IMG/VR virus record: IMGVR_UViG_3300023223_000768
Coordinates: 1-35,304 of that record
DNA length: 35,304 nt
Direction: 5' to 3' (one strand)
Origin: a virus
Shown here: in pieces, positions 1 through 35,304 of the stretch
Layout of the letters: each line of letters begins with the position of its first letter
Numbering within the stretch: position 1 is the stretch's first letter
Notes under the pieces: model-generated
Seen by the model: the letters and a program-made list of their open reading frames with translations, nothing else
What the model was told of the DNA's origin: nothing
Databases searched by the model: none
Position numbers and translations under genes: made by a program

Positions 1-144
1 CAAACAATAGATTTGATGTGAATTCCGTGACAATCGGGGGAACACCTGGAGCAATCCCTTCTGTTGATAACGCTCTTAGATATAGAGATATGAATGTTGC
101 AAATGGAGGAATAGCGAGAGATGCCGCCGTATCAACTACTTTTA
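1..144. repeat. terminal overlap, left copy (circular join)
   Basis: These 144 bases are identical to 35161-35304. An open reading frame continues through the join in frame, so the simplest reading is a circular or concatemeric genome of 35,160 bp written with an overlap. A true direct terminal repeat of a packaged genome would look the same in an assembly, but it would cut a structural gene, which is less likely. Confidence 0.95.
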
Positions 145-17898: not shown

Positions 17899-18156
17899 TT
17901 AAACTTTTATACAACGAGCATAAAACTCAGGTCGCAATTCAATCCGAACGGAAAAAAGCCTGATTTTATTGTTCACCTTAACTTCTATTTTCAATGGTCC
18001 ACGACCAGAACTCTCCCATCCATCTCTACAATAAAAAAAATGGTCAGCGGCAATCTCAGCATCCGTATTCTCAGGCCCCTTTCTGTTCCAATCTTTTGAA
18101 TCATCAGCGAGAGTCCATTCTTTCTTGTTATGTTTAGGTATTCGATATTGAATCAT
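17899..18156 (-). CDS. hypothetical phage protein, 85 aa
   Basis: AAGGAAGG precedes the ATG. The middle 'AEIAADHFFYCRDGWESS' recalls a widespread type of small phage protein with 'A..A...Y...DGWE..WP' in its centre, whose function is not known. The C-terminal half is beta-rich and basic. It is the last gene of a leftward run before the gap at 17717-17898. Confidence 0.7.
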   Translation of the reverse strand: MIQYRIPKHNKKEWTLADDSKDWNRKGPENTDAEIAADHFFYCRDGWESSGRGPLKIEVKVNNKIRLFSVRIELRPEFYARCIKV

Positions 18157-18284
18157 TTTTCCTTCCTTTCAAACTTTTGTCTCACAGGTGACCGCCTTAT
18201 TTTCCTCACCATCAGTCACCGTAGGTGGGTACTGCATGTTGGTACTACCCTTGAACCAGGATTCCCTCCACGCCGCTGTGAGAC

Positions 18285-18300
18285 TTACTCCGAAGAGTAA
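18285..18300. other. small hairpin with UUCG tetraloop on the minus strand
   Basis: TTACTC at 18285-18290 and GAGTAA at 18295-18300 flank a 4-base loop that reads UUCG on the leftward transcript with a closing C-G pair, a very stable loop. It lies 5 bases after the stop codon of the Gly-Tyr repeat gene. There is no T run after it leftward. It may protect the 3' end of that transcript or mark an RNA processing point. Confidence 0.5.
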
Positions 18301-18304
18301 ATTT

Positions 18305-18499
18305 TTAATAGCCATAGCCAGAGCCAGAGCCATAGCCATTGCCATAGCCATTGCCATCGCCATAGCCATCGCCATAGCCATCGCCATAGCCATTGCCATA
18401 GCCATTGCCATCGCCATAGCCATTGCCATCGCCATAGCCATTGCCATCGCCATAGCCAAGGCTATTTTGAGATTCTTCTCCTATTTGGATTTGTTCCAC
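18305..18499 (-). CDS. Gly-Tyr-rich hexanucleotide-repeat peptide, 64 aa
   Basis: A GTG start at 18499 lies 7-8 bases after GAGG and overlaps the stop of the DUF6948-like gene by 19 bases, so translation is probably coupled. After a non-repeated N-terminus (MEQIQIGEESQNSL) come about 25 dipeptide pairs of the form Gly-Tyr-Gly-Asp/Asn, ending in GSGSGYGY. Such sequences are flexible and tend to self-associate. The other frames of the repeat give only Met-Ala or Ala-Ile polymers without start signals. Function unknown; a real product is supported by its start site and coupling. Confidence 0.55.
   Translation of the reverse strand: MEQIQIGEESQNSLGYGDGNGYGDGNGYGDGNGYGNGYGDGYGDGYGDGNGYGNGYGSGSGYGY
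18311..18458. repeat. hexanucleotide tandem repeat, about 25 units
   Basis: The plus strand repeats GCCATA, GCCATT or GCCATC units, with two GCCAGA units near the left end, for about 148 bp. Within the main array only the sixth base varies, and G is never used there. Units of six cannot shift the frame, so changes in copy number would only lengthen or shorten the encoded peptide. Confidence 0.95.
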
Positions 18500-18831
18500 T
18501 TTAAATCCTCACAAGACATTAAACAAATCACGGTTAATTCATGAAATTGAATGTCTGGGCATGTATCTAGCTTTGTGTTTGATGTGGGACCGTTTTGTGC
18601 TAATTCGCCTAGTCCTTTTGTTGTTCCCCAAGATCTAATACATGATGCGTTTGTCAATTTGCAAGACGTTCCCTGTTGGTGAAACCAACCAACATATACC
18701 CATCCCCGTTGTAAAATGGCAATTTGCCTTGTACCATTTCGATCTTCAAATGCTCCTGTGTGTTGTGTTGAACCTGAAAATAAACTTTTCAAGCTTTTAA
18801 ATTCGCCTACCGTCATATTGTCTATATCCAT
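18481..18831 (-). CDS. DUF6948-like phage protein, 116 aa
   Basis: The start is ATG at 18831, five to six bases after AGGAGG; an upstream in-frame ATG at 18852 precedes that ribosome site and is not used. Residues about 35-95 have 'RQIAILQRGWVYVGWF', 'LTNASCIRSWGTTKGLGELAQNG' (in parts) and 'ELTVICLMSCEDL', a layout I associate with the DUF6948 family of phage proteins. No biochemical function is known. The 3' end overlaps the start of the Gly-Tyr peptide gene. Confidence 0.7.
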   Translation of the reverse strand: MDIDNMTVGEFKSLKSLFSGSTQHTGAFEDRNGTRQIAILQRGWVYVGWFHQQGTSCKLTNASCIRSWGTTKGLGELAQNGPTSNTKLDTCPDIQFHELTVICLMSCEDLKWNKSK

Positions 18832-22610: not shown

Positions 22611-22797
22611 TTTCCTTCTCCTTAACCTGTTCATTGAGATAGTCAATGATTTCATCTAATTTCTTGTGTAAAAGAAGTAATAAAGCAGCTTGAGCTGCGG
22701 ATTTGAGATTAGCATCAAACTCGTGCATTTCTGTTTCAAGACTTAAGATATGTTTTCTCACTTTATCAAACTCTTTACTTGTTGCCTTCTTAATCAT
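22591..22797 (-). CDS. small coiled-coil protein, 68 aa (paralogue 1)
   Basis: AAAGGAG precedes the ATG. A basic start (MIKKATSKEFDKVRKHI) leads to a long helix with an Ala/Leu-rich middle (AAQAALLLLLHKK) and the 'EIIDYLNEQ' segment shared with the following gene. The heptad-like spacing suggests dimer or higher oligomer formation, perhaps with its paralogue. Confidence 0.72.
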   Translation of the reverse strand: MIKKATSKEFDKVRKHILSLETEMHEFDANLKSAAQAALLLLLHKKLDEIIDYLNEQVKEKENDSEDR

Positions 22798-22840
22798 GAT
22801 CCACTCCTTTTGAATAAAACTTTCCCATTCCCCCTACCTA

Positions 22841-22928: not shown

Positions 22929-23195
22929 TTAGGTACTTAAGTCTCTAGGCGATGAGTCAGCGGATTCCCGCTCATCTCGGCCTTCAGCCTTTGTGTTAGC
23001 TTGTGAACCAAAGTTGTACAAATACGCTTGTTTCAACATTAATTTAATAGTTAGACGATCATTAATAATCTTGTTCTTATGTAATCTTCCAATCGTCGCT
23101 ATCTTTTGTACGTGTTCATCCCAATTCACTCGGATTTCTCCCCGCTTTCGTCCCTCTTGCACCCGGCTGGAAATGGTACTTCCCCCCGGACTCAC
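22929..23195 (-). CDS. possible small protein, 88 aa, or part of a structured RNA
   Basis: The frame begins with GTG at 23195 with only a weak AGG upstream. It encodes a basic protein-like sequence: 'EGRKRGEIRVNWDEHVQKI', 'RLHKNKIINDRLTIKLMLKQAYLYNFG' (in parts), then a polar 'AEGRDERESADSSP' end. The C-terminal codons also form a strong hairpin (GATGAGCGG/CCGC...TCATC), and the base composition is richer in GC than the neighbours. It lies downstream of the promoter at 23396-23425. It may be a genuine gene, the end of a decayed gene, or an incidental frame in an RNA; I cannot decide. Confidence 0.4.
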   Translation of the reverse strand: MSPGGSTISSRVQEGRKRGEIRVNWDEHVQKIATIGRLHKNKIINDRLTIKLMLKQAYLYNFGSQANTKAEGRDERESADSSPRDLST

Positions 23196-23214
23196 ATAAG
23201 CCTAAATGGTTTCT

Positions 23215-23382
23215 CTAAATTGAAAGCTTTAAGCTCAACATGAATCCATCCCAGTACGGTTCACCTTGGCAGTGCAAGTGAACGTGTTTCCAGAACTCTC
23301 TTTTTAGTCCCCTGTCAACGAGACCGCCTAGTCTTTCCCCTAAGCCCTTGCCTGAGTTATAGTGCTTTCAGGCTGATTCCAT
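23215..23382 (-). other. interrupted reading frame and hairpin-rich leader
   Basis: On the minus strand an ATG at 23382 is followed after three codons by TGA, then by 50 open codons to a TAG at 23215. That stretch is strongly protein-like, containing 'GKGLGERLGGLVDRGLKREFWKH' (in parts), 'HLHCQGEPYWDGF' and several Trp, His and Cys. No start codon lies between the TGA and this sequence. The same bases form hairpins, for example GTTCACTTG with CAAGGTGAAC (23258-23282) and GCCTGA with TCAGGC. This could be a broken gene, a recoded one or a structured RNA. Confidence 0.35.
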
Positions 23383-23395
23383 TCACTGAAGCTTG

Positions 23396-23425
23396 AGAAT
23401 AAACTAAAGCGGTCTTTTTTGTCAA
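23396..23425 (-). promoter_or_regulatory. candidate strong leftward sigma70 promoter
   Basis: On the minus strand a perfect TTGACA (23425-23420) is followed after 18 bp by TATTCT (23401-23396), or after 17 bp by TTATTC. A second TTGACA lies 18 bp upstream (23443-23438). The promoter would start RNA near 23388, directly into the hairpin-rich stretch rather than into a standard gene with a ribosome site. Confidence 0.55.
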
Positions 23426-23454
23426 TCAGTTTGAGGCTGTCAAGCTGATATATT

Positions 23455-35070: not shown

Positions 35071-35304
35071 TGCCTTTTAGTGACAGCAATGCAACAACAG
35101 ACTCAACAGATCAGACGATAGTAACTGTAGGAAACGAGGGTGGGGATCTTGTTACAGTTACAAACAATAGATTTGATGTGAATTCCGTGACAATCGGGGG
35201 AACACCTGGAGCAATCCCTTCTGTTGATAACGCTCTTAGATATAGAGATATGAATGTTGCAAATGGAGGAATAGCGAGAGATGCCGCCGTATCAACTACT
35301 TTTA
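35070..35304 (+). CDS. virion structural protein, 5' part of the gene crossing the join
   Basis: ATG at 35070 overlaps the upstream stop (TAATG). The first residues are 'MPFSDSNATTDSTDQTIVTV', and the frame then matches the start of the window, giving a complete 190-residue protein ending at 482. See the entry at 1-482 for the description. An annotation made from the linear sequence alone would miss this true start and call a GTG at 18. Confidence 0.88.
   Translation, partial: MPFSDSNATTDSTDQTIVTVGNEGGDLVTVTNNRFDVNSVTIGGTPGAIPSVDNALRYRDMNVANGGIARDAAVSTTF
35161..35304. repeat. terminal overlap, right copy (circular join)
   Basis: Identical to bases 1-144. The overlap lies inside a coding region, which continues in frame. 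Confidence 0.95.

Follow-up and report, generated by a model that had tools for sequence, protein, structure and literature searches.

A candidate structured leader RNA with a proposed 5′ pseudoknot in the early operon of an uncultured tailed phage

A gene-free stretch in the leftward early block

The window analysed here is the whole virus record IMGVR_UViG_3300023223_000768 (positions 1–35,304; 35,304 bases), which carries a 144-base direct terminal repeat (window 1–144 and 35161–35304), so that the genome was probably assembled as a circle. Terminase and portal genes found in the window mark a tailed phage, with a terminase remotely similar (~23–33% identity) to those of HTVC010P-type Pelagibacter phages and Vibrio breoganii phages. 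The late genes are oriented rightward, and a leftward block running from ~24.5 kb to 15 kb holds small unknown proteins, a single-stranded DNA-binding protein (SSB; 22367–21990, minus strand), an Erf-like annealing protein (16441–15623) and others. A strong intrinsic-terminator-like hairpin within this block (16551–16520, minus strand; 14 pairs and a U run) probably closes the initial section of the leftward early transcript.

On our own gene map, the longest stretch of the window without a plausible gene is the 660 bp between 23457 and 22798 (minus strand), the runner-up being 405 bp between the divergent blocks; the first-pass annotation had found this part of the early block to be unlike anything else in it, which holds true of its length as noncoding sequence. 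The higher GC content noted at the same time is a modest rise (0.41–0.46 vs. 0.30–0.43 in the surroundings). A consensus scan also recovers the leftward promoter then described, a sigma-70-like TTGACA-18-TATTCT at 23425–23396 (minus strand) with 10 of 12 consensus bases, which would place the start of transcription near 23387–23390. Because such matches are no commoner in the window than in shuffled sequence (35, nine of them scoring 10/12, vs. 30.8 expected), we regard this promoter as plausible rather than proven. Just upstream of it lies a 48-residue gene (23604–23458, minus strand; MKTIGFKLPEDTWRSLKFHFLDTGQTWQSYLSALVEKEMKE...) whose product resembles a ribbon-helix-helix repressor by eye, a reading that drew no support from Pfam or PHROGs; an inverted repeat at 23449–23425 (ATCAGCTTGACAG..CTGAT) could be the operator of this protein.

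Downstream, the first gene encodes a 68-residue protein starting ATGATTAAGAAG (22797–22591, minus strand) behind a Shine–Dalgarno (SD) sequence AAAGGAG at 22810–22804. It overlaps a paralogous small gene at 22655–22440 (minus strand; 32% identity, E = 6e-8); both products contain EIIDYLNEQ, and the pair matched no known family. The SSB gene is the third gene downstream of the stretch.

Two protein-like frames had been described inside the stretch and both exist, yet their coding signal is at chance level. One, at 23382–23215 (minus strand), reads ATG GAA TCA GCC TGA ..., with its ATG at 23382 and the TGA as codon 5; the other (23195–22929, minus strand) is an 88-codon frame with a GTG start. 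Their codon log-odds (0.011 and 0.053, respectively) fall within the spread of spurious open reading frames (mean −0.071, s.d. 0.128; checked small genes scored 0.03–0.27), and ten spurious frames of at least 88 residues were found inside other genes of the window, so neither frame stands out from chance. For the 88-residue product, PHROGs and Pfam gave nothing convincing, and IMG/VR and phage records gave no match. We reject the first frame as a gene and regard the second as unsupported.

The several strong hairpins previously proposed here are reflected in a strand-specific folding excess. The 581 nt from 23400 to 22820 (minus strand) fold at −181.9 kcal/mol, with z-scores of −4.69 (100 shuffles) and −4.74 (24 shuffles), vs. 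only −1.09 for the opposite strand and a mean of −0.63 (s.d. 1.32) for 70 other 581-nt windows; 300-nt windows of the stretch score −2.5 to −3.1, on the minus strand only. A single sampled window folds more strongly (18101–18681, z = −5.15), and it overlaps a tandem hexanucleotide array (18308–18458; consensus ATAGCC, 25 copies, higher-order period 18), an unusual microsatellite for a small phage that sits within a minus-strand frame (18459–18169) reading (MA)n. The minimum-free-energy (MFE) structure of the whole stretch includes long-range pairing between its 5′ and 3′ parts.

A core shared with a related phage

To look for relatives, 37 related IMG/VR loci were fetched by terminase, and the stretch was compared with all of them by blastn. 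A single match was obtained, in locus L006 (IMGVR_UViG_3300023284_001574), where 38 of 45 bases agree (84%, E = 2.6e-7); the comparison with related phages proposed in the first-pass annotation thus returned a 45-nt core lying in the same place. The terminases of the two phages are 47% identical, and window proteins from 13.0–26.5 kb found no other convincing partner in L006 by tblastn, a relative of the SSB included. The element lies equally deep in the leftward block of both phages (~1,135 bp from the outermost gene start, 24522, in the window; ~1,110 bp from 3833 in L006) and in each directly precedes a small gene whose product starts ATGATTAAGAAG, while the gene upstream of it differs. Between the two downstream proteins, one short pair of similar stretches was found (KLDEIIDYLNE and KINELIDHLNQ, 11 residues, E = 0.006 for this one comparison), which is no more than a hint of orthology. 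No comparable promoter was seen upstream of the element in L006. As a separate observation, a protein of the L006 phage (L043, 16648–16259, minus strand) has paired cysteines, appears zinc-ribbon-like by eye, and ends in FTEDDIPF, an SSB-type tip identical to that of the window's SSB.

The sequence common to both phages is AGUnAAnGGAAUCnGCCUGAAAGnACUnUAAnUCAGGC, and an ungapped alignment of the core shows 37 of 48 columns to be identical. Within it, GCCUGA (stem b, 23373–23368) and UCAGGC (b′, 23355–23350; these and all core positions below on the minus strand) are invariant and form a 6-bp hairpin closing a 12-nt loop. One further helix of four Watson–Crick pairs was found, joining strand a (AGUG, 23387–23384) to a′ (CACU, 23364–23361) in the window and AGUC to GACU in L006, such that an inner pair is G–C in one phage and C–G in the other. 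Together, the two helices would make the core (23387–23350) an H-type pseudoknot in which loop 1 (AAUGGAAUCA, 23383–23374) separates a from b, AAG (23367–23365) lies between b and a′, and AUAAC (23360–23356) lies between a′ and b′. A helix of four Watson–Crick pairs with such a compensatory double change arose in 2.1% of column shuffles; given the helix and a change in both columns, complementarity by chance is expected about one time in three. Moreover, a rival 4-bp helix (AUGG/CUAU in the window, AAGG/CUUU in L006; columns 10–13 with 30–33, counted from 0) also carries a double change, with one G–U pair. The two helices are mutually exclusive, and one may be a chance pairing or both may alternate. 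In view of the weak single compensatory change and of this rival, the pseudoknot is put forward as a reasoned proposal only. A descriptor of it, run on all relatives, found GGAATC in loop 1 only in the window and L006; the remaining matches carry other loop letters, and a reversed control yielded some as well.

Beyond the core the two elements diverge. Directly 3′ of it, the MFE and centroid structures of 23387–23306 contain hairpin 2 (GCUUAG-GGGAAAGA-CUAGGC, 23345–23326) and hairpin 3 (GGUCUC-GUUGACAG-GGGACU, 23325–23306), both on the minus strand. At the place of hairpin 2, a CUAACC-CUAACA-GGUUAG hairpin can be drawn in L006, a possible counterpart, and the L006 minimum-energy fold pairs otherwise. 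The rest of the structured stretch (23305–22811, minus strand) cannot be aligned with L006, whose element is ~255 nt long vs. ~590 nt in the window and does not fold clearly above expectation on its own (z = −1.7 for 275 nt and −0.02 for the first 88 nt). The best global fold of the window sequence opens the 5′ hairpin for long-range pairing, and retaining the hairpin costs 4.7 kcal/mol; in the L006 minimum-energy fold, part of the element can pair over the SD region. Judged from these single-sequence folds, both features would suit a two-state switch.

Further members were sought widely. No Rfam 15 family matched the window at the gathering cut-off, so that the covariance-model check proposed earlier found no known family; a permissive search up to E = 10 returned insignificant matches only, the best weak one being raiA-hairpin (18.2 bits vs. 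a cut-off of 43.7). The L006 element likewise had no significant Rfam match, and ARAGORN found no tRNA or tmRNA gene. When IMG/VR was scanned with five DNA patterns, and with the 88-residue frame and the SSB as baits, L006 was the sole result beyond chance matches, most of which fell in coding DNA: other pattern matches (L040, L067–L089 and L090–L093) scored at most 20 bits, vs. 67–68 for the two members, or were coding by eye, and the SSB bait found no relatives. Among 84,980 prokaryote species, 23 matches were obtained, near chance for 17 fixed bases and none with both helices. The core found nothing above chance by BLAST against phage and plasmid records, and covariance model R1 recovered only L006 from 29 records of relatives. 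The element is thus rare in the records searched, from which close neighbours of the window may have been withheld, and with two known members it constitutes a lead rather than a family.

A cis-acting leader RNA and competing readings

We consider it somewhat probable that the stretch encodes a structured leader RNA that acts in cis on the leftward early operon. Its core lies at the expected start site, near the head of the early-gene run, and precedes a gene in cis; two phages with otherwise diverged surroundings share this arrangement, as would be expected of a control RNA in a leader. In favour of a leader, the core is conserved at 84% amid early genes that show no detectable relationship; against it stand the restriction to two members, the opening of the hairpin in the best global fold of the window sequence, the missing promoter match and weak folding in L006, and the slight similarity of the downstream proteins. 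Transcription from near 23387, as the promoter-like site would predict, would yield an RNA led by the core, whose first 38 nt would adopt the invariant hairpin and also, if the one compensatory double change is taken as evidence, the pseudoknot; ~500 nt of further structure would follow before the early gene at 22797. The loop letters GGAAUC, AAG and UAA are conserved, and the pseudoknot is most likely bound by a protein, of phage or host, or by RNA polymerase; such contact would set the level of transcription or translation of the downstream early genes. The start of transcription, the formation of the pseudoknot in vivo, its partner and its effect on expression are all inferred. By our reasoning, an operator bound by a protein and an RNA that targets RNA polymerase would be about equally likely, each holding a minor share of the whole.

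A free-standing large noncoding RNA of ~450–590 nt, processed or terminated before 22797 and acting in trans or packed with protein, appears rather unlikely. Strong folding along the full length, the promoter-like site of its own and the long-range 5′–3′ pairing in the MFE structure would all suit such an RNA; however, no intrinsic terminator was found before the next gene, the element of L006 does not reach half this length and is conserved in its first 45 nt only, and both elements run straight into an SD sequence and a gene. A cis-acting leader appears to us the more likely of the two.

It is unlikely, too, that the conserved feature is a DNA element, with the dyad GCCTGA-N12-TCAGGC serving as a repressor operator or origin-related site and the RNA folding being incidental. 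The perfect 6-bp inverted repeat is identical in both phages and lies just downstream of the window's expected transcription start, and the ribbon-helix-helix-like protein is encoded just upstream (23604–23458). Yet each genome has a single copy of the dyad, whereas some operators have several sites; the conserved letters are asymmetric around it and extend beyond its 5′ side, only one strand shows the folding excess, and L006 has another upstream gene and no promoter-like site. Moreover, an operator would have no use for the compensatory change.

It is improbable that the element is a riboswitch binding a metabolite and belonging to a small-pseudoknot class yet to be described. The proposed H-type pseudoknot, which has conserved letters in its loops and lies 5′ of a gene, resembles small-pseudoknot riboswitches in general appearance, but even the permissive Rfam search gave no significant match and no metabolic gene lies directly downstream. 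Riboswitches normally occur in bacterial genomes, and the element was not found in those scanned.

Of the three proposals in the first-pass annotation, structured RNA is upheld by the z-score, the conserved core and the compensatory change, and its suggestion to weigh compensatory against codon-type changes yielded the one double change in a/a′ and differences (core columns 8, 11, 18, 28, 32, 36 and 46) not spaced by threes. A decayed or recoded gene (an early stop, or TGA read as selenocysteine or tryptophan) is very improbable: the frame stays open for ~50 codons past the TGA with protein-like residues and ESA-stop-K is retained in L006, but L006 reads KESA-stop-KDFKSGKC-stop-P-stop, having lost the ATG and kept the TGA, with TAA stops 8 and 10 codons past it, so that the relative offers neither an uninterrupted frame nor one conserved apart from a recoded codon, the variable sites are out of codon register, codon usage is like that of spurious frames, and no convincing relatives of the larger frame's product were found.

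The preferred leader RNA is probably ordinary in kind and new in sequence. Whether its core founds a class of its own among phage RNA pseudoknots acting at early-operon starts, such as an antitermination RNA that works without protein or a novel operator for a binding protein, is doubtful, though possible. Both carriers are uncultured phages remotely related to HTVC010P podoviruses. Theirs is a lineage of small, podovirus-like phages in which the control of early genes seems to have received little study. If the reading is right, the element is an undescribed phage RNA motif, a compact and testable pseudoknot heading an early operon, for which AGUnAAnGGAAUCnGCCUGAAAGnACUnUAAnUCAGGC offers a short handle for finding members and testing binders, and AGTNAANGGAATCNNNNNNNAAGNNCTNTAA a search string.

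Comparison with known systems

Length, high structure and a phage origin are shared with GOLLD, ROOL and other large phage-associated noncoding RNAs of Rfam, families from which the window differs in having no match at the gathering cut-off, all matches up to E = 10 being insignificant. The put RNAs of HK022 are structured RNAs that act in processive antitermination, stand at the start of an early phage operon and are read in cis; put sites have two stem-loops each and are located in both early operons. The present element would similarly be a structured RNA heading an early operon in cis, a likeness of arrangement rather than of compared sequences. Unlike put, it occurs in one copy, and few strong terminators (one, 16551–16520) would need antitermination. 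A lambda-type nut site, composed of boxA and a boxB hairpin, does not fit: the lambda-type boxA GCTCTTWA is absent from the leader, its two matches in the window sitting elsewhere.

In T4 and RB69, the gene 32 operator is a short pseudoknot in the 5′ leader, located 5′ of the SD sequence, which nucleates a translation-repressing protein (PMC535899). The T4 pseudoknot spans ~28 nt, and between it and the SD of the SSB gene the leader continues for more than 40 nt that are UUAAA-rich and less structured (PMC535899). Such an arrangement, in which the SSB gene has its own leader with a weakly structured UUAAA-rich stretch, does not describe the window, where the SSB gene is third rather than first, ~500 nt of highly structured RNA intervene, and the SSB has no relative in L006 by tblastn. 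As in the T4 operator, however, the proposed pseudoknot (a/a′ being possible in both sequences, with the one compensatory change seen in 2.1% of column shuffles) would lie in the 5′-terminal part of a leader in a phage, and the operon that follows includes an SSB gene.
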